This document shows positions 597 to 13,814 of a stretch of 13,814 nt of DNA, piece by piece; within the stretch, counting starts at the first letter, position 1; every line of letters begins with the position of its first letter. The stretch is from positions 1 through 13,814 of the forward strand of contig CAJWHU010000029.1 of assembly GCA_913041325.1 (NCBI GenBank), in the 5' to 3' direction. The translations under genes were made by a program, and so were the position numbers. The stretch is from an uncultured Fidelibacterota bacterium. Its GTDB lineage: Bacteria; Marinisomatota; Marinisomatia; Marinisomatales; UBA1611. The notes beneath the pieces were generated by a model that searched no databases, was not told where the DNA came from, and saw only the letters and a list, made by a program, of their open reading frames with translations.

Positions 597-2162
597 CTAG
601 TTTTTGAAAGATTCAACATATATTTTCCGCAAAGTCTCTGATTCAAAACACACAGGTAAGGTATTGTTAAATGAATTTTTTGACACATCATAGTAAATGA
701 AATTATCCCAATTAAACCCTGAACCACACATCGCATCATGGTCAATCTCAGTTAAATTGTTTTTGTCAAGTCGAAGGTATCTTAGATTCGAATTATCCAT
801 GAAATAATCGGGGACATAACCGATTAGGTTATTACTAAACAGCCCTAAGTATTTTAAATTTGGAAGTTCTGTAAGATTATTAGGTATACTACCTTCTAAC
901 TTATTTTCAAACAGTGCAAGAGATACTAATGATTTTACATTTCCAATCTCGGTAGGAATAGTTCCACGGATTTTATTTTTACCAAGGCTTAAAAACTCGA
1001 GTTTGCTTAGATCACCAATGTCTCGAGGTATTGTTCCGCTGATATCATTATCCCAGAGGTTTAGATAAACTAGATGCTGAAGGTTTCCAACTGCCTCACT
1101 CAAGTTTCCAGACAATTTGTTAGAGCTTAGGTTCAGGTGTGTTAAATTTTTCAGGCTAAATATCTGGTATGGCAGATGACCAGAAAATTGATTGTTAGAT
1201 AGCCAAATTTCTTCCATATTTTTCAGTCTGTGTATATCTCCCGGTATGACACCTGTTAGCTGATTATCGCTCAGATTAATCACTCTTAAATAACTCATTT
1301 CCCAAAGTTGATCCGGAAGGCCCCCGGTGATAAAATTATTTTGTAGTCTCAATACCTCAAGATTCAATAATTTAAATATCTCCTTTGGAAAATCACCAAA
1401 CAATGATGATGATGATAGATCGAACTCTTTTGTTTCCAATAATGAATAATCCTTCCCCATTATGGTAACAAAATAATCTCCTAGCACTATGTTAGAATAT
1501 GATTCAAGACCCCAATGATCTACAACTCCAATTTGGTAGTAGAATGCCGAATCCATGGGGAGAAAAAATGTTGTATCATCTTTTTCATAAACTTTTTGAG
1601 CAATTTTATTATTGTCCATATCGGGGTTTTTTGATTGATAGATTGTATAATGGTTGAAGTCAATATCCAGATTTTTTTCCCAACGGATGCGAATTGCTTT
1701 ACTGTATTCGATTGGAAAAATTTTTGTAGGTGCAGGTGCCCTAATCTCAAGCTCATGCGTTCCCCTATCGCCAATAGCTACGGAGTCAGCTTTACTTTTG
1801 ACATTTACCCAGAACCAATTCTCAATTCGAGGATCAAAAGAATGTAGCTGAAAGACCGTGTCAGCTATATTTTGAACTATTTCAATTGTATCTATACTAC
1901 CGTCTTTTATCTGTTGAAAAAGCACATACTCCTTAAAATCGGAGGCTGTTGATTGCTTCCAAAGAATAACCATTTTATCTTTGTCATACTTTACCGAAAT
2001 GATTGGTACCTTTTCTGGAGGAGAAGGAGGAATGAACGACGGAGATTTAGTTTCCTGAATTGTAACTCTAGGAGGAGAGGGTTCGGGAGCTGGTGGGCTA
2101 CTGCAGCTCCAAAAAAGACAGATTGGCAGCAAATAATAGTAGAAATAAAAAAAACGGTTCAT
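597..2162 (-). CDS. Lipoprotein with FN3-like domains and plant-type leucine-rich repeats
   Basis: A predicted surface or periplasmic lipoprotein of 521 residues, probably a binding or scaffold protein; no catalytic motif is seen. Numbered from the ATG at 2162: a short basic N-terminus and a Tyr/Leu-rich hydrophobic stretch end at Cys20 in the context LFWSC. That is a relaxed lipobox, followed by a Ser/Pro-rich tether (SSPPAPEPSPP). Two FN3-like domains follow at about 55-135 and 140-230, each opening with a W-x(7-8)-DF-x-x-Y pattern. From about 247 there are ten consecutive 24-residue LRRs of consensus LxLxxNxLxGxIPxxIxxLxxLxx, with no insertion or deletion, then a degenerate eleventh repeat flanked by two cysteines. 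A TTG at 2174 would add four residues in frame (3 nt after the upstream small gene); ATG is preferred because it gives a more usual signal peptide. The ligand is unknown. Confidence 0.88.
   Translation of the reverse strand: MNRFFYFYYYLLPICLFWSCSSPPAPEPSPPRVTIQETKSPSFIPPSPPEKVPIISVKYDKDKMVILWKQSTASDFKEYVLFQQIKDGSIDTIEIVQNIADTVFQLHSFDPRIENWFWVNVKSKADSVAIGDRGTHELEIRAPAPTKIFPIEYSKAIRIRWEKNLDIDFNHYTIYQSKNPDMDNNKIAQKVYEKDDTTFFLPMDSAFYYQIGVVDHWGLESYSNIVLGDYFVTIMGKDYSLLETKEFDLSSSSLFGDFPKEIFKLLNLEVLRLQNNFITGGLPDQLWEMSYLRVINLSDNQLTGVIPGDIHRLKNMEEIWLSNNQFSGHLPYQIFSLKNLTHLNLSSNKLSGNLSEAVGNLQHLVYLNLWDNDISGTIPRDIGDLSKLEFLSLGKNKIRGTIPTEIGNVKSLVSLALFENKLEGSIPNNLTELPNLKYLGLFSNNLIGYVPDYFMDNSNLRYLRLDKNNLTEIDHDAMCGSGFNWDNFIYYDVSKNSFNNTLPVCFESETLRKIYVESFKN
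621..1424 (-). repeat. Array of eleven 24-residue leucine-rich repeats (72-bp coding period)
   Basis: Ten repeats lie in perfect 24-residue register (nucleotides 1424 down to 705). An eleventh follows after a four-residue shift, to about 621. Repeats open with strands such as LRLQNN, INLSDN, LNLSSN, LNLWDN, LSLGKN, LALFEN and LGLFSN, and most carry the L-x-G-x-[ILV]-P turn of the plant-specific LRR class. Two cysteines, in AMCGSG and LPVCF, bracket the last repeat and could form a capping disulfide. The repeats differ at the codon level, which argues against very recent slippage. Confidence 0.85.
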
Positions 2163-2177
2163 TTTGTTTCGCAATTT

Positions 2178-2432: not shown

Positions 2433-5400
2433 TTATTTTAGAAGTAGCATTTTCTTAACAGAGGTAAAATTATCAGTTTCAACCATGTATAGGTACATCC
2501 CAGCTGATACAGTTTCCCCAGATTGGTTTGTTGCGTCCCAGAAAAAATGCTTTCTTCCAGGCCCCTGCATTCCAAGGTTTATAGTTTTTACAATTTTACC
2601 GCTAATATCGAAGATTCGAAATGTGACATTTGTATTTTCAGGAAGATCAAACTGTATTTTTGTAAACGGATTAAATGGATTCGGATAGTTCTGATATAAA
2701 GCATATTGCTCTGGCAATGGATCAACATCGACTCCTAGAACAGCAGCATCAACTATCTCAGAATATTCGCTGTAATTGCCGGAATTATCTACAGCCAAGA
2801 CTCTGTAGTAATTTGTTGTATTGTACTCAAATTCAAAATCAACATACACCGTATCTAGTAGTAAATGCTCAGTAAACTCTAAGAACTGATTGGTAAATGA
2901 CTTATGCAATAAATAATATTGAAAGTCGTCAGCTGAAATTGGATCCCACGAGATACTGATACCATCCTCCAACACGATTGCTGATAAATTTATTGGTGCA
3001 TCAGGCGAAAGGTTATCAACAGAATAGCCAGCTACCACCTCAGAATGGTATGATCCAGAATTCATTGATGCCACGACTTTGAAAGATGTAATCCCGTTAC
3101 CAGAGACCGTGGAGTCTGTTACAGTTGATACATCGTAGGTGTATGATTGGCTACCGTTCGCAACACCATTGAGAATATTTACCCATGTTGGTTCGGCCTC
3201 TATGGTGTCTGATCTAAAAATGGTGTAAAACTGTCCGGTTACATCGATTTGATCAAAAAATGAACCTTCAAAATCCAGATAAACCTTTCCACCCTCATCA
3301 CCAGGCACATCAGAAACAGATGTAATTTTTGGTTGAAAGAAGCGTGCCTCAAGCTCAAAGGTATCCCTGACTTCAACCTGACCATCGCTTAGAAGAAGTG
3401 GAATAGCATAATAGCCCTCCTCAGGTGCATTTCCCAATAGCCTATATGGTTGGCTATCTATAGCTATCCAATCAGGGTATTCTAACAGATTATCAAAGGT
3501 TATTTCCAGGTCATCTAGATCGACATCAGTTGCATGCAAAATAAAATCGAAGTCAACGCCAACACCAACTAAACTGTAAAGATCAGCAAATTCTGGTGGA
3601 TCGTTTACAGGAAGTATGGTTACAGAAAATTCTTCAACGTCTACCGCCCTTCCCATGTTATCGTTCGCATACACTGTTACAAAGGCAGATCCATTCCAGT
3701 TAAAGTAGGGGTTTATGTGAATGACTCCATCTATCACCTGAGTTGTAACTTCTTCTTCTGATGAGGTTGCTGATAACGTGATATCATCGTTGTCTACGTC
3801 TGATACTATAACCTCCACTTCTGATTCAGTATCCTCTTCCATTGTAATATCCTCAATTTCCTGTATGACGGGTTCGTCATTGACAGGAATTATATTTATC
3901 CTTACGTACCCAGTATCAGAAAGACCATCATATTCTCCATCTGTTGTCCCATCATCCATTAACAGGTAGCTCATACTATCCGGTCCGAAATAGTCTGTAT
4001 TGGGAGCATATGCAAGCATACCAGTATTACGTTCGATGGAAAATGAGCCATGAGTAAAAGGTTCGATTGTAGTAAAGGTAAGTCCCTGGTCATCCTGCTC
4101 CCCATCGAGGAGATCGCCATCATGCGCATCCAAGTATATTTCTAGGAAATTGTCTTCGTCAATGTTGTGAACTTCACTTGCCGCATACGGTTTATCATTT
4201 ACGGGAACCACAGATAGCTCAAAATCAGTTGTAGCCGAGAGATTATTATCTAAGGTTAGTTGCACCTCGATATCAACGCTTCCTGTCCAATTTGGTGCAG
4301 GTATAAGCGTTAAGGTATCCTCTTCGACTAATGCAGAAAGCTGCTCACTACTACTCGATGCATAAAAAACATGCTCATAATCAGCATAGGCCGACTCAAG
4401 AACTACGCTTAGAGTTTCATCCTCCATTACCAAGGCATCCGGGATATCAGCCAAAAAAGCATCTGAGGACACAGATAAAGAGGTATTTAGGTTTATTTCT
4501 GCTTGGTCAGGGTCGTTGCTGTAGATATTTACAGTTGAGCTATACTCACCTGGCTCTAATTCAACCGCCGTGTAATGTAATTTCAGGGTGTCGTATTCAC
4601 CCACTGAAATAGTGCCTGCGTTAGTTGAGCTACTAAACCATGAAGGCGTCTCAAGAGAGATTACTACATAACCATGGCCTTCATTTACTCCGGGTTCATT
4701 TTCTTGGTCCTGAGATGAATTAAATGAGGCACCGCCCCACCCTCCACTGAGATTTGCTCCTGTACGTCCACCACTGTATCCACCTCCGCCGCCACCGTCA
4801 GCATAGCCATCGCTTCCGCCACCACCAAAACCACCATAGCCCGTACCTCCTCCAGAGTAACCTACACCCCCTACGCCTCCATTTATGTACGAGTACGCGA
4901 TAGAACTACCTAGATGCCCTCCAAAAAGACCGTTCCCATAAAACCCTGCTCCAGAGTTACCCTCACCCTGGCCACCGCCTGCAAAGCCACCATATCCTGC
5001 TGCGCCAGTCTCACTGTTGTACGTTTCAACTATAGCATCATAGCCTTGGTAATAAGAGCCTGATCCACCGCCACCACCTGCGATGATAAGTATGGATTCA
5101 TCGTTATTGTGAGGTAGCCTTGTAACAAAAGTTCCACCTCCGCCTCCACCAGCATAACCACCGCCGTAGTTGCTTTCTTGGACACCCATTTGTCCAACAA
5201 GGATGTTTAAAACTTCACCAGCCTGCAATTCAAATTTTCCACTCATGCGACTGCCTAAGCCTGCGGCAATACCATTGTTTGTCACACCTCCACCTTGGGC
5301 ACCAAATACCTCAATGGAATAGAGGCCTGATTGTGGAACGCTCCACTCCTGAATACCACCACTTAATGTTACACCTCCTTCAAGGGTTGTACCAATGTAT

Positions 5401-8090
5401 TCATCGTCGCAATCACTCTGAGCAGGACCCGTGTTGCCAATTGCCCCGCAATTTGTGAATGTGTATGACGTTGAATTTCTTCCAGAGTTCAATGCGCTTA
5501 AGCTCCAGCTTAGGTCTCCTGTGCCGTCATTGCCAATTATGATATCACGCGATGCTGTATCGCCTACAAAAAGATCAACATCCAAAGGTTCATAGGATAA
5601 TGTGATATTTGGACTAGGAATGTTAACAGTTAGAGAAACTGGAACATCCACAGTGGGCTGTTCATAGTCATTGCTAACTATAGAAACATTTCCCTGGTAA
5701 TCACCACCACCTACATTTGCAGCGTTCAAGGTAAGCTGAATTACCGAAGATTCTCCCGCTGGCGTGAGGCCTGATGATTCTGAAAGTGCCATCCACTGAG
5801 GAGATATATCGATCGTATTTAAAAATGCTTCCATTATAACAAGGGTTTGCGCATCATCGATGAAACCTCCGATTGCTCTGGAATATAGCAGATAATATAA
5901 TCGGTCTGAGTTTTCTAACCCAAATACTCTATGGTAGTCATTATCTGTATTAGTAGCAAACTCATGGCTAAGACCCTCGTTTGCCTCAACGATAAACAAA
6001 TGATTAATTGAGGGGTCTCCAGCGTTGAAAACTCTTTTAACAAAGCCATAAAAGGTTTTTCCATTTATATTTGTCTCCAAGACAGACCCGTTCACTGTGC
6101 CACCATTATCAGCACCATTGTTGCCTGTTATTTCAAAAAAAGGAATATTGTTTATATCCGCTACAAAAAGGAATAGGCCATTATATTTTCTGGTGAAATA
6201 GGAGCCTCCCTGTCCAAGGTTATCATTGCTAACAACCAGGCCGTCAGAATAATTTAGTATTACTCCTGATGGGGTAGACAATTGGTTGCCACCATCATAC
6301 ATGTCATTCCCACCATCTATAATACTGTAGCCATTGACTCCATCCGAAAAAAAGTACATGTCTGGAATATTTGATGTTATAGTTTCAAAATTTTGATCTA
6401 TGTCTTGCAAGATTGATTCTAAATTGCCATCCCTATCTCTATCAATTGTACTAAATGATGTTGCGGCTCTAGTTCCCGTATAGGATATCGCATCGAAGCT
6501 AAAAATATTTTCGGCAGTGGGAATATTCACCATCATTACTTGATCATCAGTCTTTAATACAGGGCTTTGGTTGATTTCCGTTCCAAATGTCTCGCTACTG
6601 GCAATGACCATTGAAGAATTGGAATTGGATAAATTTATCTGCCAATCAAGATCTGCATCGCCCTCATTATAAATAGTTATTCCATGTTGAGATATTTCAC
6701 CAAGATACAACTCGTCCTCTATAGAGTTAGGCGATACAGAAATACTTGGTATGAGGGGTAAAGCGGTTTCCTCAACCCAGCTCGCACCGTATATTGTGGC
6801 ATGGTTTGCATTCCCACTGTGGTCATACAAAATCTCTCCCTCGCCTGCATCTGCCGTCCAATACACCAGGAGTCCATCCTCATCGCCATGGTGACCATTG
6901 AACACATCATTTTGGATTTCATTTTGAGTGCGGGCCACATTCCAAATTGAAACTTGGTCTAAAGTGTAATTACCTGGGTTATCTACGTTTCTATTTCTTC
7001 CAAGCTCAATACGATTCCAATCAGTTTCTACCCATTCTACTGTCTCCACTAAATCACCATTGAAGTATGCCCTGGTTGTTTGCCCATCTGCAACTATGGA
7101 TATATGCCCCCATTCTAATGCCAGTGGCGCTATTGTTATAGCTCCGAGCGCAGATTGCATTCGATAATTATCAGATCCATCACAGTCTAGTTGCCAACCA
7201 TTGTTGGAGCCGTCATGAGTATTAAAAATACTTTTCCACCGATTCTGACTCAAGGTGTTTGCTCTGACCCATAAAGAAACAGTATAGGTGCTCATGTTAC
7301 CACTCCAGTCAAGATGTGTGTAATCATCAACACCATCAAAGCTCAGGACATATTCACCATTGTCAGGGTATACACAGCTACCATCATCGGCTGTTGCATC
7401 CTCATTAAAATTTATGGCAAATGGGTCAGTACAACCAGGCGACAGAGGTTCCAAACCAATACGAAAATAGGGATGGAAGCCATTATCATTTACGTTGGGA
7501 TGTTGACCAGCCACACCATTCTTCATTGTTAAAGGTCCAACTACATGGGGCAATCCAGCATCATTAAAATATTCTATGTAAGAACACCAATCGTCAGATC
7601 CGTCTGAAGGAGACCACTCCAAATAATAGTACTCTCCAGCCTCAAAAGAAAAATACTCAGCAAAGAGGAGGTCATTCCACCCCATGTTACCAAAAGCACC
7701 AGGATTGCCCTCAACACTATGTAAAAGTTCATCAATTGCATAAGAGCTGGAACTTTTAAAAATACGAGCTAAATAATTCTTATCATAGAGCTGGGCATAT
7801 ATACCTAATGATGATATAGTGAAATCTTCATTTGCTATAATATGCAGGCCACGGCCAGAGCCAACTCCACCCCCAGTATAGGTACCAACAAGGCTTGGAG
7901 ATTCAAGTACAATGTATGAATCACGATCATTGCTTGATGGCCTACTTTCACTTCGATTTATTTCATTAGTGTGTAACCTTTCAGGATTAATAGGCTCACT
8001 GCCATCTATATATTTTGGATTGAACTGCTCTGCGTGTAAAAAAAATGGTGCAATCAAAAAAAGTTGGAAGATATTAGCGGTTTTATTCAT
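2433..8090 (-). CDS. Giant secreted multidomain surface protein with LamG, ALK/LTK-type glycine-rich and cadherin-like domains and T9SS C-terminal tail
   Basis: This is an 1885-residue extracellular protein, probably an adhesin or structural surface protein; I see no enzyme motif. Order of parts: signal peptide 1-20 (cleavage after FLHA); unassigned beta-rich region 60-215; GCTDPFAINFNEDATADDGSC at 219-239, with two cysteines likely paired; LamG-like domain about 245-440; two copies of an HYDIN/BACON-like Ig-fold domain (about 448-824 and 827-1209), each split by a large insertion; cadherin-like repeats about 1217-1297, 1302-1402 and 1406-1497, each ending in PVNDxP; a further Ig-like cadherin domain about 1500-1585; unassigned 1586-1690; FN3 about 1693-1782; T9SS-type tail 1798-1885. 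The ATG at 8090 gives a good signal peptide. It follows the ROK kinase gene by 106 nt and ends in its own terminator, so it is probably monocistronic. Domain names are from motif recognition, not a profile search. Confidence 0.92.
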   Translation of the reverse strand: MNKTANIFQLFLIAPFFLHAEQFNPKYIDGSEPINPERLHTNEINRSESRPSSNDRDSYIVLESPSLVGTYTGGGVGSGRGLHIIANEDFTISSLGIYAQLYDKNYLARIFKSSSSYAIDELLHSVEGNPGAFGNMGWNDLLFAEYFSFEAGEYYYLEWSPSDGSDDWCSYIEYFNDAGLPHVVGPLTMKNGVAGQHPNVNDNGFHPYFRIGLEPLSPGCTDPFAINFNEDATADDGSCVYPDNGEYVLSFDGVDDYTHLDWSGNMSTYTVSLWVRANTLSQNRWKSIFNTHDGSNNGWQLDCDGSDNYRMQSALGAITIAPLALEWGHISIVADGQTTRAYFNGDLVETVEWVETDWNRIELGRNRNVDNPGNYTLDQVSIWNVARTQNEIQNDVFNGHHGDEDGLLVYWTADAGEGEILYDHSGNANHATIYGASWVEETALPLIPSISVSPNSIEDELYLGEISQHGITIYNEGDADLDWQINLSNSNSSMVIASSETFGTEINQSPVLKTDDQVMMVNIPTAENIFSFDAISYTGTRAATSFSTIDRDRDGNLESILQDIDQNFETITSNIPDMYFFSDGVNGYSIIDGGNDMYDGGNQLSTPSGVILNYSDGLVVSNDNLGQGGSYFTRKYNGLFLFVADINNIPFFEITGNNGADNGGTVNGSVLETNINGKTFYGFVKRVFNAGDPSINHLFIVEANEGLSHEFATNTDNDYHRVFGLENSDRLYYLLYSRAIGGFIDDAQTLVIMEAFLNTIDISPQWMALSESSGLTPAGESSVIQLTLNAANVGGGDYQGNVSIVSNDYEQPTVDVPVSLTVNIPSPNITLSYEPLDVDLFVGDTASRDIIIGNDGTGDLSWSLSALNSGRNSTSYTFTNCGAIGNTGPAQSDCDDEYIGTTLEGGVTLSGGIQEWSVPQSGLYSIEVFGAQGGGVTNNGIAAGLGSRMSGKFELQAGEVLNILVGQMGVQESNYGGGYAGGGGGGTFVTRLPHNNDESILIIAGGGGGSGSYYQGYDAIVETYNSETGAAGYGGFAGGGQGEGNSGAGFYGNGLFGGHLGSSIAYSYINGGVGGVGYSGGGTGYGGFGGGGSDGYADGGGGGGYSGGRTGANLSGGWGGASFNSSQDQENEPGVNEGHGYVVISLETPSWFSSSTNAGTISVGEYDTLKLHYTAVELEPGEYSSTVNIYSNDPDQAEINLNTSLSVSSDAFLADIPDALVMEDETLSVVLESAYADYEHVFYASSSSEQLSALVEEDTLTLIPAPNWTGSVDIEVQLTLDNNLSATTDFELSVVPVNDKPYAASEVHNIDEDNFLEIYLDAHDGDLLDGEQDDQGLTFTTIEPFTHGSFSIERNTGMLAYAPNTDYFGPDSMSYLLMDDGTTDGEYDGLSDTGYVRINIIPVNDEPVIQEIEDITMEEDTESEVEVIVSDVDNDDITLSATSSEEEVTTQVIDGVIHINPYFNWNGSAFVTVYANDNMGRAVDVEEFSVTILPVNDPPEFADLYSLVGVGVDFDFILHATDVDLDDLEITFDNLLEYPDWIAIDSQPYRLLGNAPEEGYYAIPLLLSDGQVEVRDTFELEARFFQPKITSVSDVPGDEGGKVYLDFEGSFFDQIDVTGQFYTIFRSDTIEAEPTWVNILNGVANGSQSYTYDVSTVTDSTVSGNGITSFKVVASMNSGSYHSEVVAGYSVDNLSPDAPINLSAIVLEDGISISWDPISADDFQYYLLHKSFTNQFLEFTEHLLLDTVYVDFEFEYNTTNYYRVLAVDNSGNYSEYSEIVDAAVLGVDVDPLPEQYALYQNYPNPFNPFTKIQFDLPENTNVTFRIFDISGKIVKTINLGMQGPGRKHFFWDATNQSGETVSAGMYLYMVETDNFTSVKKMLLLK
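2436..2699 (-). other. T9SS type A / FlgD-like C-terminal sorting domain (residues 1798-1885 of the giant protein)
   Basis: The last 88 residues start LYQNYPNPFNPFTKIQFDL, continue with VTFRIFDISGKIV and SAGMYLYMV, and end KKMLLLK. This is the typical C-terminal sorting domain of proteins exported through the Bacteroidetes/FCB type IX secretion system. The known role is outer-membrane translocation followed by tail removal and surface attachment or release. No T9SS machinery gene is in the window. Confidence 0.88.
3600..4442 (-). other. Three tandem cadherin-like repeats (residues 1217-1497 of the giant protein)
   Basis: Three consecutive modules of about 80-100 residues each close with PVNDKPY, PVNDEPV or PVNDPPE. 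They contain features such as NIDEDNFL, TMEEDTES and SDVDNDDITLSA. These acidic linkers between beta-sandwich modules resemble the calcium-dependent junctions of bacterial cadherin-like/VCBS domains. Calcium binding is inferred from family resemblance. Confidence 0.75.
4653..5462 (-). other. ALK/LTK-type glycine-rich domain (residues 877-1146 of the giant protein)
   Basis: The segment begins FTNCGAIGNTGPAQSDC and runs through GIQEWSVPQSGLYSIEVFG and AQGGG, then FELQAGEVLNILVGQMG, GGGGGGTFVTR, ILIIAGGGGGSG, many GGG runs, and closes with GHGYVVI. This order (Cys-Gly start, IQEW-VP-G-Y, GAQGG, G-LN-LVGQ, GGGG-TFV, AGGGGG, GYV-I) is the signature of the glycine-rich domain of the animal receptor kinases ALK and LTK, which also occurs in some bacterial secreted proteins. 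It is not a simple low-complexity tract, because non-Gly residues hold a defined pattern. Function here is unknown; ligand or surface binding is inference. Confidence 0.8.
5811..6620 (-). other. Unrecognised ~260-aa inserted module (about residues 491-760 of the giant protein)
   Basis: This module interrupts the first Ig-fold copy. It has distinctive segments: STIDRDRDGNLES (an Asp-rich DxDxDG loop at 550-555), DMYFFSDGVNGYSI, IDGGNDMYDGGNQL, GQGGSYFTRK, ITGNNGADNGGTVNG, and GFVKRVFNAGDPSINHLFIV. The pattern is not that of any enzyme I recognise. The dense Asp/Gly/Asn loops suggest a metal-stabilised extracellular beta-rich fold, which is inference only. Confidence 0.5.
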
Positions 8091-8196: not shown

Positions 8197-9144
8197 TCAA
8201 TACTCCCAAACTAGCGAGGCTGCTCCAAGTATACCGGCTTTACCTTGTGGGAGACCGGAGGGTAAAAGTCTTACAGTATTTTTTTGACAATCTAATAACT
8301 GTTCCTCCATCGATATTTTTGCATACTTGAGTAAGCGGGTACCAGCATTGCTAAAACCACCGTAAAAGACAAATGCCTCGGGGCTCAGTATGGCTGCTAC
8401 TTGTGCTAAACCAATGCCCAATTTTAGACCCGTGTATTGGTAGATTTTCCTGGCCGTTTTATTTCCTTTGTCATATTCAGAATCTATTATTGCGCCATTG
8501 ATATTTCCGCTATTGAGCTGATTTAAAAGTAAATCTTGCGGGTCATCTTCTAGAAATTCTAAAATGGTATTTTTTACGCCCGTGGCTGACACATAAGATT
8601 CCAAACATCCACGCTTTCCGCATTTGCACATACGTCCATTTGGATCAATAGACACATGTCCCACCTCCCCAGCAAATCCACTGTAACCATACACAAGAGC
8701 TCCTCCGCTAAAAACACCGCTACCTAGACCTGTTCCTAGCGTTATTTCAACAAAATCATCCATGTCTTTTGCAATGCCGTAGTTTTTTTCACCTAACGCT
8801 GCAGCATTAGCATCATTAGTCACAAATGTCTTTTGATTAAAATAATCTCCAAAGGCTGCTTTAATATCAAAACTTTCCCAATCAAGGTTTGGTGGTGAAT
8901 CAATCATACCTGTATTACGATTCGCGTTAGGCGCACCAATACCGATGCCAATCATTTCCATGGATGAATTTTTCACCAAATATTCATTTATAGATTTATA
9001 TAACCTGCCTATTAGATGATCTACAGATTGCGTGCTGTTTGTAGGTATTTCACCTTGCTGATATATTGCCCCTTTTGCATCAATTAGACCGTAAACAGTA
9101 TTTGTACCGCCTATGTCGACACCTAATGCAACCTTATGATCCAT
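8197..9144 (-). CDS. ROK family sugar kinase (glucokinase-like)
   Basis: This is a cytosolic ATP-dependent hexose kinase of the ROK (repressor/ORF/kinase) family, 315 residues, the usual length. Seen: N-terminal phosphate-binding loop GVDIGGTNT (8-16); TNDANAAALGE (109-119) with the predicted catalytic base Asp111; LGTGLGSG (136-143); the ROK signature with sugar-contacting Glu160 and His163 in GEVGH; and the zinc site CKCGKRGC (Cys173, Cys175, Cys180 with His163). There is no N-terminal helix-turn-helix, so it is a kinase and not a NagC/Xyl-type repressor. Glucose is the likely substrate from the ExGH motif, but N-acetylglucosamine, N-acetylmannosamine, mannose or fructose cannot be excluded. 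The ATG is 6 nt after the stop of the PKD-like membrane protein gene, so it is very probably the last gene of that operon. No defect is seen in its active site. Confidence 0.93.
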   Translation of the reverse strand: MDHKVALGVDIGGTNTVYGLIDAKGAIYQQGEIPTNSTQSVDHLIGRLYKSINEYLVKNSSMEMIGIGIGAPNANRNTGMIDSPPNLDWESFDIKAAFGDYFNQKTFVTNDANAAALGEKNYGIAKDMDDFVEITLGTGLGSGVFSGGALVYGYSGFAGEVGHVSIDPNGRMCKCGKRGCLESYVSATGVKNTILEFLEDDPQDLLLNQLNSGNINGAIIDSEYDKGNKTARKIYQYTGLKLGIGLAQVAAILSPEAFVFYGGFSNAGTRLLKYAKISMEEQLLDCQKNTVRLLPSGLPQGKAGILGAASLVWEY

Positions 9145-9150
9145 GATTTG

Positions 9151-9711
9151 TTAGTTTAGACCCGACCCCTGCCGGACTTTCATATCTATCACTGGGGGCA
9201 TGTTTGGCTCGGGCTCGATTACTACAGTTCTTGTCACAACTGCCTCAGATCCATAATCATCTGAAACAGTTAGTTCGAAGGTATATTCACCAGCCTCAGC
9301 CTCAAAACTTACCTTCCCAGAAAATGGATTGGGTCTAATTTCAACAGGTTCACCTGATATCTGTCTCCAAACATATTGCAGTTCATCACCGACATCTGGA
9401 TCAAAAGAGTTTGTTGCATCTAGAATCATAGGATATGTTTTAGTAAGAGGTGAATTATCATGTTCAATCATGACCCTGATTTTCGAGCGTTCGGCGATCG
9501 CCATTTTTTCTAACAAGTCTATTTTCATGGTTTTTTGGATTGACTTTGACTCATCATATCTGGGCTCTTCAACTGTTTCGGTTACAGCCTCATTTAAAAT
9601 TCTATTCTCATAGTTTTTCCATTGATACAGGAGTAAAACAGATGCCAGAATGACAACTGTAGAAAACAACTTACCTATTTTATCGTTTTCGAAATATGAA
9701 TTGAACATCAT
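9151..9711 (-). CDS. Single-pass membrane protein with PKD-like domain
   Basis: A 186-residue protein I cannot assign to a named gene. Residues 1-13 are polar with Lys. A hydrophobic segment at about 14-30 (LFSTVVILASVLLLYQW) is a signal anchor or single membrane span. A charged linker (31-75, probably helical) precedes a PKD/REJ-like beta-sandwich at about 78-166. Its hallmarks are LDATNSFDPDVGDELQYVW (97-115), QISGEP, and GEYTFELTVSDDYGSEA (141-157). A short Pro-containing tail follows. The likely topology is N-terminus in the cytoplasm with the PKD domain in the periplasm. Two ATGs lie in tandem at 9711 and 9708 and either could be the start. It sits 14 nt after the LPP20-like lipoprotein stop and 6 nt before the ROK kinase, so all are probably one transcript. 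PKD domains are usually protein- or glycan-binding; the partner here is unknown. Confidence 0.82.
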   Translation of the reverse strand: MMFNSYFENDKIGKLFSTVVILASVLLLYQWKNYENRILNEAVTETVEEPRYDESKSIQKTMKIDLLEKMAIAERSKIRVMIEHDNSPLTKTYPMILDATNSFDPDVGDELQYVWRQISGEPVEIRPNPFSGKVSFEAEAGEYTFELTVSDDYGSEAVVTRTVVIEPEPNMPPVIDMKVRQGSGLN

Positions 9712-9725
9712 TAATTAAAATTGTT

Positions 9726-11039
9726 TTAATTTACTTTGAATGCTTTGTCTAGTTCAGCATTTAATTGTTGCACCATTTCATCGTATGCTCTCACCCCCGC
9801 AATTTCTTGCGAGTCAAAATCAGCACCTTTTACATCAGTAAAATTGATATTGAAAAACTCTTTATCTGTTGATATTTCTTTGAACCCAACTGAGGTATTG
9901 CCAAAAGTAAAATATGGAAAATTACTTCCCATTCGTCTAGACTTTTTAATGGTATTTGATTCTATTATAATTTTAATATCAGGGTCATCTGAAACAAACT
10001 CTAACCTATCATTCATATATTTTTTAATAGCAGGTTCTATTATTTTATCTTCCAAAACCTTGTTTAAGTTTTTTTCTGTTGAAACAATAAGGGCACGTGC
10101 CGGTAAAACACGGGCAGTAATAGTATTAACAGTAGGATTAATTTTGATTAAACTATTTTTTGTTGCAAAATTTGAAAATAGCGAATCCACATCAACGCTG
10201 TATTCTATCGATAATGATGAAGCAGTAAAGGGAATCAAAATATCATGTTGAACAATGCCATTTGCATCTGAAAAATAGGTAGATGTACCATCCAAAGTTT
10301 TAATTTTTAATGGTAACCCTCTAATGGGTTTTTTCTGGACTTTATCACGCACCGATATTTTAACATATTTACCTCTATCAATAAATGTTTTGAAGCTGCT
10401 ACTCTCAAGCTCAGCACTAAGAAGTAAACGAGAGTTATAATCTTCTATTTTTCTTTTAATTAAGGAATATAAATTATGTCGCTCATTATTGTAAGGTACC
10501 TCTATAGGCTCATCATGAAAAGGTAAAATCTCTTGCCAGGCTTTTTGAATCAGTGAAAAAGAATTTGCTTCCAAATTGTTATCAGCAAGCCTTATATGCT
10601 CCAAGGCGGAGCTGGTGGCATTACGTCGTAAACGCTTCATAGTCTCTCTGTAGGTAGCTTTATGCATTCTTACATAGAAATAATCACCATTTCTTGTGCT
10701 GTGATGACCGATAAACTCCAAATCAGGAAGTAATAAATCAAACCGAGATTTCATTACTGACTCTATCATGTTTTCGATATTACCATTGAGATCTTTTACA
10801 ATGATTTCCATATCAGAAGTAACATTGATCTTTATCTGAGATGCAACCTCGTTGATAGCAAATGTTTTGGAAACCTCTTTAGGGTCTTTATGATCAGATT
10901 TAGAGGCGTAACCGACACCATGGTAATATTCTTTATCAATAGGCATTACTTCAACCCAGTCTGGAGGACCTAAAAAACACCCATAAGCGTTTAATAAAAA
11001 TGCAACGAAAAGACTAAAATGCATTACTTTTGATTTCAT
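9726..11039 (-). CDS. LPP20-like lipoprotein
   Basis: A 437-residue predicted lipoprotein. The signal peptide ends at Cys21 (LLNAYGC). Residues about 27-135 match the LPP20-type fold: PDWVEVMP, HGVGYASKS, then a long helix (FAINEVASQIKINVTSDMEI) and a terminal strand DYFYVRMHK. A helical region follows (about 140-215), then an Ig-like or carboxypeptidase-regulatory-like beta domain (about 223-305, with IRGLPLKIKT and YFSDANGIVQHD). Last is an alpha/beta domain (about 312-437) I do not recognise, containing ARALIVSTEKNLN and AGVRAYDEMVQQLNAELDKAF. LPP20 domains are found in outer-membrane or periplasmic lipoproteins of poorly defined role and resemble the N-terminal domain of flagellar FlgT. 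The ATG is 9 nt after the caspase-like gene stop, so the two are almost surely co-translated. Function is unknown. Confidence 0.82.
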   Translation of the reverse strand: MKSKVMHFSLFVAFLLNAYGCFLGPPDWVEVMPIDKEYYHGVGYASKSDHKDPKEVSKTFAINEVASQIKINVTSDMEIIVKDLNGNIENMIESVMKSRFDLLLPDLEFIGHHSTRNGDYFYVRMHKATYRETMKRLRRNATSSALEHIRLADNNLEANSFSLIQKAWQEILPFHDEPIEVPYNNERHNLYSLIKRKIEDYNSRLLLSAELESSSFKTFIDRGKYVKISVRDKVQKKPIRGLPLKIKTLDGTSTYFSDANGIVQHDILIPFTASSLSIEYSVDVDSLFSNFATKNSLIKINPTVNTITARVLPARALIVSTEKNLNKVLEDKIIEPAIKKYMNDRLEFVSDDPDIKIIIESNTIKKSRRMGSNFPYFTFGNTSVGFKEISTDKEFFNINFTDVKGADFDSQEIAGVRAYDEMVQQLNAELDKAFKVN

Positions 11040-11048
11040 GATTAGCAG

Positions 11049-13814
11049 CTATCGTAGATCAAGGACAATACGTTTAAGATCCATCCCATTAAACTTTGGG
11101 TTCTGCATTATCGTCCCCGGTTGTTTTCTCAGGACTGAAGGAACGGTTTTATATACGTACTCAGTGATTTCACCCAAATCAATAAAACTGTTACCGTCAT
11201 CGGCTGCGCCCGCTAAACCTTTTAGGAGGGTGTATGTAAAGAAACTATGTTTCTTGTCTTCATATATCTGGGATGTTTCTCCATTTGAGCTAGCGCTTAA
11301 GATACAAATTTTATCCGGTAAATCAGGGAAATCCCACATTAATTCTGCAGAATCTTCATAGTTCAAATAAGTTATATCAAGAAAAAGGGTGATTGTTTTT
11401 ATACTACCTAGAACTGAAAGCCTTGATAAGTTGCTGACTAATTCCTCGAGAGGATATTTAGTAATATGCCTGTCATATTTCGCATCTTTTGGAATAAGCA
11501 GCGGTCTACCTTTAACCCACTCTCCATATCCCCGATAATAAATAAAAATATTTATCTCCTCCATATCAGAATACCTCTCAGCTGAGATTATTCTTTTCCT
11601 AAGGTCGCCCTGGTATGGATCAAATATTAATCTAAACTCATCTCCGGTTGGACCTCCATCCATTTGCCATGTTTTTGAGGGTAGCATTTGAAAATCGGAT
11701 AAACCAAAGGCCTGGCTGAAATACTTCCTTACAACATCCCTATCCCTATCAGCATGTTCTAGATTGCCATATTGGCTGTCATCGTAATCTTGGGTACCAA
11801 TTATTACCGCAATACCGTTTGGATTTTTTCTTCCAAGCGGTATCCTTCTATCAACGTCTATCTCACCTATCTCGTCCGGATAATATTCAATATTCTCCAC
11901 CCCAAGATCTTGCACCACTAATGCCTCAGGAGGTCTATAGTTGCGCATAGTTTCTAGATCGATACGTTGTTTTGATATTCGTGCGAGGTAGTCTTTTAGC
12001 TCAACCTCGATGGCAAAATTTTCTTCTGCAGTCATTACAGGTATTTCAATATCTGTGTAATCGCCTGGTTCAAAAGCTGGTAGTGATATTTTTCCTGTAA
12101 AATTAGGCATTGTATAGGTGCGATTTTTTATCACGTTAATCGAAACGGACTCTGTACTGCCCTCTCCTACATTTTGAACTCTTAGTGTTAGATTGACTTT
12201 TTCATTTTTAGGTATGTAGTGGGTACCAAATTCATTAGAAACCGCAAAATCGCCAATAATCATTTTTGGTGGGACCATAGATTTTGTTTCAACCTGAAAA
12301 AAATAGGGCTGATCAAGTCCAATCTCCTCCCTGGATTGCAATTGAAGTTCAAAATCATGTTCCCCCGACAATACCTGGAGCATACCTTGAATCTCAATTC
12401 TGGCAAATTTAATTCTTCCCGCCTTAATCGTATCCAGCGTAAAAGGTTCGCCTACAGTTAAAAACCTGTCTGGGTCTTTTGAAGTGACTGAGGCCACTAC
12501 TTGATGTGCTGGGCTCTGCCCGTCGTTCAGAATGGAAAACTGTAAATAACCACTTTCCTTTGCATCAATAATTCCATTTCCAGATGGTTCATTCAAAACC
12601 ATGTTTTCTACAACAAAATGTGGAGGGTCGAGCACAATGTTACAAGCCGGCAATGAAAAATCACTTTCATCACCATCCATATCAATGGAAGTAACTACAA
12701 AACATACATCCTCAGAAAAGTCTAGGTTTTTTACTGTAAAAGCTGTGGATCTTGACTCTCCTGAATACGATATAGAGTCTTGACTTATTCGCTCATATAT
12801 CATGTAATAATCAGCGCCTTTGACCTCATTCCAATTTAAATGCATACTGGATACATCCGCATTCGCCAAAACACCAAGTGGAGGATTAAGAGGTACTTTT
12901 GTACAATGCTCATTCGACAAATCCGATTCTATATCGTATCTATCTACAGATGAAATTTTATAACAATATGTCTTTCCAGGGGGCATTGGATCAGCAAAGG
13001 TAGTAGCGTTTGAAGATTCTAAAAGCTCATTTTCCCTGTAGAGATTATAGCTAGATGCGCCCGCTACCTCATTCCAAATCAGCGTGATATTTGTTTTGCT
13101 ATTCATTGAAGATAATATAGGAACCTCAACTAACTCATGTGTTTTAGCAAGAATTTCAACAGATGGCCCGCTCTCTGTTTTCAGTGCATCTAAAGCTGAT
13201 ATCTTATAATAATATTCCTCAGAAAATTCTAAGTTATCATCTGTAAATGAAGTTATAAATGGCTTTCCCACTATTTCATCGTTTCTGTAAATAATATAGG
13301 AGCTGGCCCCGGCAACAGGTGACCATTCTAATTTTATGGTATTTTTATAAACAGTATCTTTTATATCTCTGGGTGACTCCGTTGGAGCGCTATCGCAAAA
13401 TTGTTTTGAAATTTCTCCTTTCAGTTCGTAATTACCAGAGGCCTGAATAGAATAGCAATATTCAACTCCTGGGGTTATTTCTTTTTCAAATCTGGTTTCC
13501 TCTCCAACATATACTTTTTTATCATTTTCGTAAATTGTATATAGTTTGGCCTGCTTTATGTCGCGCCATGATAATGTGATGCGAGATGGTTCCGTGGTTG
13601 TTTCGAGGGTCTTAATATTTAGTATGGGATCGAATAATGTTGGTGGCTCATCCCCGAATAGATAACACTCAACTGCTTGTTTTTGCCCATTAAGTGCCAA
13701 CTCTAATGATAAATCAGTGTTCTTATTCTTCCGTGGGTTAATTTTAATGCGCTTTGAACCATCACCCTGATGTTCAACCAGCAGATAATAAAATTTTGGT
13801 TCTACACCCTCGAA
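11049..13814 (-). CDS. Caspase-like (peptidase C14 fold) protein lacking the catalytic His and Cys, with FN3-like N-terminal domains; 5' end outside window
   Basis: The frame is open to the window edge. A TTG at 13700 can be read as a start, but 38 sense codons precede it with no stop, so the true start lies outside. Numbering from that TTG codon: four FN3-like domains (about 40-105, 115-187, 195-270, 280-355), two CARDB-like beta-sandwich domains (about 360-475 and 478-585; the first has GNGIIDAKESGYLQFSI), a linker, then a C14 caspase fold (about 628-870). The fold is well kept: AVIIGTQDYDD, LEHADRDRDVV, LLIPKDA, LSASSNGETS and FFTYTLLKGLAGAADDGN. But the SGHG motif reads RGYG (Tyr725 for His) and the DxCFSG motif reads DITYLN (Thr777 for Cys). 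It is therefore predicted to be proteolytically inactive. It heads a tight cluster with the LPP20-like lipoprotein 9 nt downstream. Confidence 0.87.
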   Translation of the reverse strand, partial: FEGVEPKFYYLLVEHQGDGSKRIKINPRKNKNTDLSLELALNGQKQAVECYLFGDEPPTLFDPILNIKTLETTTEPSRITLSWRDIKQAKLYTIYENDKKVYVGEETRFEKEITPGVEYCYSIQASGNYELKGEISKQFCDSAPTESPRDIKDTVYKNTIKLEWSPVAGASSYIIYRNDEIVGKPFITSFTDDNLEFSEEYYYKISALDALKTESGPSVEILAKTHELVEVPILSSMNSKTNITLIWNEVAGASSYNLYRENELLESSNATTFADPMPPGKTYCYKISSVDRYDIESDLSNEHCTKVPLNPPLGVLANADVSSMHLNWNEVKGADYYMIYERISQDSISYSGESRSTAFTVKNLDFSEDVCFVVTSIDMDGDESDFSLPACNIVLDPPHFVVENMVLNEPSGNGIIDAKESGYLQFSILNDGQSPAHQVVASVTSKDPDRFLTVGEPFTLDTIKAGRIKFARIEIQGMLQVLSGEHDFELQLQSREEIGLDQPYFFQVETKSMVPPKMIIGDFAVSNEFGTHYIPKNEKVNLTLRVQNVGEGSTESVSINVIKNRTYTMPNFTGKISLPAFEPGDYTDIEIPVMTAEENFAIEVELKDYLARISKQRIDLETMRNYRPPEALVVQDLGVENIEYYPDEIGEIDVDRRIPLGRKNPNGIAVIIGTQDYDDSQYGNLEHADRDRDVVRKYFSQAFGLSDFQMLPSKTWQMDGGPTGDEFRLIFDPYQGDLRKRIISAERYSDMEEINIFIYYRGYGEWVKGRPLLIPKDAKYDRHITKYPLEELVSNLSRLSVLGSIKTITLFLDITYLNYEDSAELMWDFPDLPDKICILSASSNGETSQIYEDKKHSFFTYTLLKGLAGAADDGNSFIDLGEITEYVYKTVPSVLRKQPGTIMQNPKFNGMDLKRIVLDLR

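Follow-up and report, generated by a model that had tools for sequence, protein, structure and literature searches.

Can a caspase homologue that has lost both residues of its catalytic pair still serve a function, and is that function one of cleaving or of binding? The question is raised by a gene, referred to here as p990, at one end of the window, that is, the whole 13,814-nucleotide stretch of DNA that was analyzed. A sequence-only reading of this DNA had described the gene product as a pseudo-caspase with an intact C14 fold and both catalytic residues replaced, had argued from the reading frame that the gene is not in decay, and had suggested that the protein binds or senses rather than cleaves. 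The coordinates of p990 and its neighbors are provided in Table 1.

Table 1. Coordinates of p990, its domains and active-site residues, and the neighboring genes in the window.
Feature	Position	Strand	Remarks
Pseudo-caspase gene p990	11049..13814	-	921 codons present; truncated at the 5' end by the window edge
FN3-like repeat region, residues ~60-395, limits approximate	12630..13637	-	PF21910 and PF09294 matches, all-strand model, FN3 chains in Foldseek
CARDB domain, residues 522-598	12021..12251	-	E 8.6e-5, 23.1 bits (cut-off 22.7)
PF00656 caspase domain match, residues 667-896	11127..11816	-	Pfam
Asp 691, aligned with metacaspase specificity-pocket Asp	11742..11744	-	Sequence alignment
RGYG replacing SGHG; Tyr 763 codon (11526-11528) at catalytic His position	11523..11534	-	
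Asp 813, Asp of DITY, kept in relatives	11376..11378	-	
DITY replacing D-x-C-F; Thr 815 codon (11370-11372) at catalytic Cys position	11367..11378	-	
LPP20-domain protein, lipoprotein-like N-terminus by eye	9726..11039	-	E 5.2e-6; 9 bases after p990 stop
PKD-domain protein, N-terminal hydrophobic anchor by eye	9151..9711	-	E 1.2e-8
ROK-family sugar kinase	8197..9144	-	E 1.2e-59; 6 bases after PKD gene
1885-residue protein with Por_Secre_tail	2433..8090	-	Neighbor in a subset of relatives

Fold and active site of p990

The reading frame of p990 is open throughout, from the window edge at position 13814 to the stop at 11049. A near-identical protein (100% identity over the scored part, 99% overall) contains 990 amino acids, and thus the window copy is short of ~70 N-terminal residues. 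In relatives of ~990 residues, such as that of locus L001, an N-terminal CarboxypepD_reg domain is followed by repeats of the FN3-like and CARDB-like types, and the caspase fold lies at the C-terminus. The start of the homologue P0001 looks, by eye, like a signal peptide, and this together with the extracellular-type domains identified by Pfam suggests that p990 is probably secreted. The match of the window protein to the caspase profile PF00656 scores 27.0 bits (E 4.4e-6), which is above the gathering cut-off of 21.4.

Solved structures were reached via a model of the caspase domain and via a profile of His-Cys relatives, since a direct search of the PDB with the sequence of the window's caspase domain gave no match at E ≤ 1. 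The domain model matches PDB entry 3h11, by its title a caspase-8:c-FLIP-L complex, and the caspase-hemoglobinase fold is recovered. Given that the model aligns with caspases as far as residue 282, a p10-like part may be present as well; absence of a p10 domain, by the p10 profile of Klemencic et al. (2019; PMC6426788), is a further mark of pseudo-orthocaspases. The full-length model has a pTM of 0.38, and the top 50 Foldseek matches listed for it are FN3-type and other stalk proteins, which are uninformative with respect to the caspase end.

On the plus strand the window reads ata at 11526-11528 and agt at 11370-11372, corresponding to TAT and ACT in the coding direction. The Tyr codon in RGYG and the Thr codon in DITY, as read earlier, are thus borne out. 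A profile-profile alignment of the p990 domain with 18 His-Cys domains from the same phylum (probability 100, E 7.8e-45) brings RGYG onto AGHG and DITY onto DACF. The remaining histidines and cysteines of the domain, namely His 687, His 783, Cys 837, and His 856, do not make a second pair in the active-site positions. His 856 belongs to a KKH motif, which the 18 His-Cys domains carry in addition to the GHG histidine, and the position of Cys 837 is either Cys or Ser among relatives. With Tyr and Thr in place of the His-Cys pair of an active C14 peptidase, p990 is, judging from its sequence, almost certainly catalytically dead. It corresponds to a pseudo-orthocaspase as defined in PMC6426788, namely a prokaryotic caspase homologue in which one or both of the two residues are replaced. 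The description of an intact C14 fold with both catalytic residues replaced is supported by the PF00656 profile, by the structure model, and by the homologues.

A total of 83 homologous proteins were found. None of the 81 with 51-100% identity across the scored region has the His-Cys pair, and the other two, P0082 and P0083 (27% identity), display GHG and D-x-CF. With the window included (84 rows), the His position is occupied by Tyr in 74, Leu in 6, Phe in 2, and His in 2, and the Cys position by Thr in 75, Ser in 7, and Cys in 2; Tyr, Leu, or Phe at the former and Thr or Ser at the latter are each found in 82 rows. Given that the same loss is seen in 81 of the 83 homologues, its occurrence in the window is not a matter of chance. 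Both catalytic residues are likewise absent from the p990 genes of all 17 related loci.

When the homologues were combined with loci from related genomes and duplicates were removed, a set of 138 rows resulted. The residue pairs in this set are Tyr-Thr (70), His-Cys (23), Glu-Asp (19), Tyr-Ser (7), Leu-Thr (7), Leu-Lys (6), Phe-Thr (2), Leu-Arg (1), Lys-Cys (1), and partial (2, with one position missing). In all, 95 rows are of the p990 kind, the p990, p1600 (the paralogue described below), and His-Cys groups in these counts and in the trees having been assigned by the residue pair itself, which is circular, with homology and locus position providing the independent tests. The most distant p990 proteins by locus, those of L014 and L015, have no PF00656 match of their own at E ≤ 0.001 and were assigned by full-length homology and profile.

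The residues at the dead positions vary in p990 (Tyr, Leu, or Phe at the His position; Thr, Ser, Lys, or Arg at the Cys position), and thus no single new pocket chemistry is conserved. Asp 813, which corresponds to the Asp of the D-x-C motif, is kept in 137 of the 138 rows, the exception being a partial one. At the position of Asp 691, an aspartate is observed in 94 of the 95 p990 rows (the exception again partial) and in all 23 His-Cys rows. According to PMC6426788, two aspartates form the basic-residue specificity pocket of metacaspases, and both acidic residues are kept in p990, their equivalence being judged by sequence alignment only. As the Asp 691 position is Asn in 15 of the 19 Glu-Asp (p1600) rows, the pocket argument is valid for p990 only. 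Gly 764 is invariant in 43 closer sequences and in a wider alignment including L014 and L015. Arg 761 and Trp 766 are invariant in the 43 closer sequences, but are not kept in L014 and L015.

The tandem paralogue and neighboring genes

Directly upstream of p990 lies a paralogue of ~1600 amino acids, p1600, which is present, whole or cut by a contig end, in all 15 loci with a contig long enough; the contigs of L006 and L015 are too short to show it. The window starts inside p990, and p1600 is presumably its upstream neighbor there as well. The PF00656 match of p1600 has an E value of 3.5e-8 in L001, and in L014 there is no match at E ≤ 0.001. In all 16 p1600 genes read by position (those of the 15 loci and of L065), Glu occupies the His position and Asp the Cys position. 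Right after the dead Cys position, a run of at least six lysines is found in 16 of the 19 distinct p1600 rows; L007 has a broken basic run, and two L014/L065-type rows have none. The run reaches up to 17 residues in L001 (6862-7761) and other p1600 loci. In the 11 loci for which its codons were read, both AAA and AAG are used, and the longest stretch of A is 5 to 8. A link between poly-lysine length and p990 pocket type was considered and rejected, none being visible by eye.

In caspases and metacaspases the loop after the Cys position is often a processing loop. It is conceivable, albeit very unlikely, that p990 and p1600 form an obligate extracytoplasmic hetero-complex in which the acidic pocket of p990 docks the poly-lysine loop of p1600, such that an old enzyme-substrate contact would have turned into a permanent joint or sensor. 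The frequency of the Lys run and its mixed codons speak for such docking. Against it, the Lys run and the Leu-Lys form of p990 show no visible co-variation, as can be seen from the two L014/L065-type rows, which lack the run, and from at least one genome, G186, which encodes a Leu-Lys p990 and yet has the p1600 Lys run. The poly-lysine could equally serve as a binder of anionic polymers, which also counts against docking on p990.

Of 18 loci, 10 have the LPP20 gene downstream of p990, 16 the PKD gene, 15 the ROK gene, and 6 the gene for the giant Por_Secre_tail protein, counts that include loci ending early; indeed, the two loci without the PKD gene end before it. In 8 of the 18 loci no LPP20 gene separates the PKD gene from p990, and the LPP20 gene is thus not an obligate neighbor. 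It also occurs near some His-Cys caspases of the phylum (L072 by Pfam, L070 and L071 by BLAST), and thus this neighborhood may be inherited. By Pfam, DUF4384 genes lie beside the His-Cys caspases of L054, L056, L062, and L072; the window shows no such gene next to p990. Upstream of the p990/p1600 pair, DUF3228 is found in 11 and a divergent DUF92 gene in 10 of the 18 loci. Each of the 27 genomes in the family of TMED46 that carry p990 also has the PKD protein. Outside of these, G163 has a fragment of it and five further genomes of the order give weaker matches, with none in G165, the order's p990 genome outside the family. DUF3228 occurs in 27 of the 33 family genomes and is less tied to p990, since G205 carries p990 without DUF3228 and G212 carries DUF3228 without p990. 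The p990, LPP20, PKD, and ROK proteins have zero matches to PADLOC profiles at E ≤ 1.

The 1885-residue protein contains Laminin_G_3, cadherin-like, ALK/LTK glycine-rich, and Por_Secre_tail domains and probably represents a type IX secretion substrate. As to a link to type IX secretion through PorU-like (C25) peptidases, which was considered, no C25 peptidase is among the window's Pfam matches (E ≤ 0.001), nor is one among the 50 structural matches listed for the caspase-domain model, the latter absence being uninformative. Positions 597-2174 (minus strand) encode a 525-residue leucine-rich-repeat protein with a start that is, by eye, lipoprotein-like.

History, selection, and distribution

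The main tree contained 79 of the 138 rows (those of at least 230 residues plus 15 chosen database proteins), of which 36 are p990, 19 p1600, 23 His-Cys, and one Lys-Cys. In it, p990 (100/99) and p1600 (100/100) each form one clade, and the two clades join (100/98) apart from the His-Cys rows, among which the Lys-Cys row is located; the root is a midpoint, such that the tree is unrooted in effect, and the long branches of P0082 and P0083 meet. A second tree of 69 rows was calculated by a "quick" method with SH-aLRT values only, the active-site columns and long rows having been removed along with P0082, P0083, L077, the Lys-Cys row, and eight more database proteins. Again, each group lies on one side of a branch (SH-aLRT 97 for p990, 98 for His-Cys, and 100 for p1600). 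The simplest history suggested by these trees is one loss of the His-Cys pair followed by a tandem duplication giving p990 and p1600. Two separate losses after the duplication provide an alternative, given a tree that is unrooted in effect, but one not favored as the simplest.

The tandem His-Cys caspases of G163 were considered as the ancestral state of the pair and rejected, as the tree puts them in two different His-Cys groups and as the dead pair of G163 itself is probably missing through assembly (see below). Their locus (L054:1565-9507) contains two such genes encoding 936 and 971 residues, followed by a DUF4384 gene, and adjoins the gene for a MATCAP-domain protein. Other His-Cys caspases are accompanied by diversity-generating retroelements (L059:2572-5169 and L058:8071-10570). 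That of L059 is composed of RVT_1, bAvd, and an FGE-sulfatase target, and the template and variable repeats differ at a template A in 28 of 31 positions in L059 and 20 of 20 in L058. A related reverse transcriptase gene lies beside a caspase at L104:9656-10705, as does RVT_1 at L063:444-1505, where a template/variable repeat was looked for and not found. Retroelements of this type near caspase-type effectors have been reported (PMC10907252). The Lys-Cys form is encoded at L067:2225-5074 in genome G004, which also has the dead pair; it is a 949-residue LysM and CARDB protein whose caspase-fold end reads AGKG/DACFTG, the His being replaced by Lys and the Cys kept.

Purifying selection acts on p990 and p1600 in relatives. 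NG86 dN/dS ratios, which are rough in that many dS values exceed 1 and YN00 yielded a value for only 5 of the 20 pairs, are 0.077, 0.070, 0.057, 0.035, and 0.129 for five of eight p990 pairs; in the other three, window versus L001 among them, dS is saturated and there is no value. The corresponding ratios are 0.018, 0.020, 0.101, and 0.054 for p1600 (four pairs), 0.031, 0.110, and 0.061 for His-Cys caspases, 0.060, 0.133, and 0.129 for ROK, and 0.177 and 0.203 for LPP20.

The p990 protein is encoded on 17 genome contigs, 15 of which are named Marinimicrobia or Neomarinimicrobiota, a mostly uncultured group of marine bacteria; by relatedness, the window is assigned to this phylum. In a phylum sample of 199 genomes, 38 match at E ≤ 1e-5, and 16 of these have p990 by E ≤ 1e-50. 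Of the 33 genomes in the TMED46 family, 28 have a match (E ≤ 1e-30); G163 does so by His-Cys caspases only, which leaves p990 in 27. Across the order, 30 of 130 genomes match, G163 and G171 by His-Cys caspases, and thus p990 is present in 28 (27 of the family plus G165). In G163 the downstream genes of the pair reach the contig end, such that the pair is probably missing through an assembly gap. All are MAGs and SAGs, for which completeness was not given. A search with the profile of the 18 His-Cys domains (E ≤ 0.001) of 21 p990-carrying genomes revealed caspase-fold matches outside the pair in four, namely G007 (1), G142 (2), G009 (1), and G004 (1, Lys-Cys), the first three having a full His-Cys caspase. 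In the other 17 there is no other caspase-fold match at this threshold, though incomplete MAGs may hide some.

Proposed role and relation to known systems

The reading favored here, to which as a joint claim a probability of roughly 0.6 is assigned, is that p990 is a secreted, catalytically dead caspase-fold module borne on a stalk made up of repeats of the FN3-like and CARDB-like types. Its ancestors would have been His-Cys caspases like those still found in the phylum; the pair would have been lost once, and tandem duplication would then have produced p990 and p1600, both dead. Acting outside the cytoplasm, in the case of p990 probably at the outer face of the cell membrane, the two would form an envelope complex with the membrane-anchored PKD protein and, where roughly half of the loci are concerned, also with the LPP20 protein. 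The pseudo-active site of p990, with its two pocket aspartates, would bind a basic peptide or partner loop without cutting it. The account builds on what was computed, namely the fold, the His-Cys loss and its spread, and, in relatives, the tandem arrangement and purifying selection. Ligand binding in the old active site is suggested by the retained pair of pocket aspartates and the low dN/dS in relatives. That p990 binds or senses rather than cleaves, as was originally suggested, is the best inference.

That the gene is a decaying pseudogene or the product of assembly errors is virtually certain to be wrong. Nothing favors it beyond the substitutions themselves, and it is opposed by the 921-codon open frame, the 81 homologues with the same loss, the presence of p990 in 27 of 33 family genomes, and the low dN/dS in relatives (the window's own pair being saturated). 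The earlier argument against decay thus stands. It is highly improbable that p990 remains enzymatically active, with a new nucleophile provided by Thr or Ser and assisted by Tyr: although the commonest pairs, Tyr-Thr and Tyr-Ser, both place a hydroxyl at the Cys position, other members have Leu-Thr, Leu-Lys, Leu-Arg, or Phe-Thr, and L014 and L065 lack a Tyr-Thr or Tyr-Ser pair and yet have the same neighbors. A family-wide role therefore cannot need such chemistry.

The possibility that p990 regulates an active caspase of its own cell or serves as its decoy, as c-FLIP-L does for caspase-8, gains from the match to 3h11 and from the His-Cys caspases of the phylum, including those in 3 of the 21 p990 genomes, with G004 adding its Lys-Cys form. 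It is quite unlikely, however, in light of the 17 genomes in which no other caspase-fold match was found at E ≤ 0.001, though incomplete assemblies may conceal some. Rather unlikely, too, is a purely structural or adhesive role at the surface, in which a caspase fold lacking any specific ligand would simply cap the end of the protein in a stable manner. The stalk makes up most of p990, the residues at the dead positions vary, and Arg 761 and Trp 766 are lost in the most distant members; the near-complete retention of Asp 813 and of aspartate at position 691, the invariance of Gly 764, and the low dN/dS of the caspase domain in relatives argue against it.

Pseudo-caspases as a kind are known; in the open-licence literature found, as far as searched, no account was encountered of the present lineage, of the stalk architecture, of two dead paralogues in tandem, or of most of the residue pairs. 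Among the matches listed there, no title concerns caspases of this phylum, and those for Marinimicrobia plus caspase hold nothing on the subject by title and abstract start. The p990 lineage is not known for photosynthesis, and thus a proposed link between dead caspases and photosynthesis is unlikely to be general. The aquatic metacaspase survey PMC4933709 does not name Marinimicrobia or SAR406 in its available part. In a 2012 survey (PMC3501461), the pair was intact in 84% of prokaryotic caspase homologues; where it was replaced, Tyr and Ser were seen most often. In 2019, 858 of 9,994 bacterial orthocaspases were reported to lack one or both residues, 90% of these pseudo-orthocaspases being alphaproteobacterial or cyanobacterial (PMC6426788); p990 adds a lineage beyond these two groups.

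As described in the available part of PMC6426788, pseudo-orthocaspases resemble p990 in their p20 caspase fold, the replaced His-Cys pair with Tyr usual at the His position, the two retained specificity-pocket aspartates, and a presumed role that does not depend on active caspases. The pairs named there are YS, YN, YA, FS, QC, and HA, whereas those observed here are YT, YS, LT, FT, LK, and LR in p990 and ED in p1600; only YS is shared, though the tables of that paper may hold more. Unlike those proteins, p990 belongs to the Neomarinimicrobiota, carries its dead domain at the C-terminus of a stalk, and has a dead paralogue in tandem. SyOC of Synechocystis is likewise a dead bacterial caspase homologue, from another phylum and described without a p10 domain in PMC7889975; its deletion leads to higher oxidative stress tolerance, and thus a dead caspase can have a phenotype. 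The His-Cys caspases of the same phylum (L018, L054, L072, and others) share with p990 the fold and the CARDB repeats (L054 by Pfam, L018 by eye), but keep GHG and DACF[ST]G. In the c-FLIP-L/caspase-8 system, whose role is taken from PMC6426788, a dead caspase-fold paralogue is also paired with a related caspase-fold protein. The partner of c-FLIP-L, however, is an active caspase, whereas here both tandem paralogues are dead. As the loss seems to precede the duplication and a further caspase-fold match is lacking in 17 of 21 genomes, the family provides a clean case for a non-catalytic role of the caspase fold.
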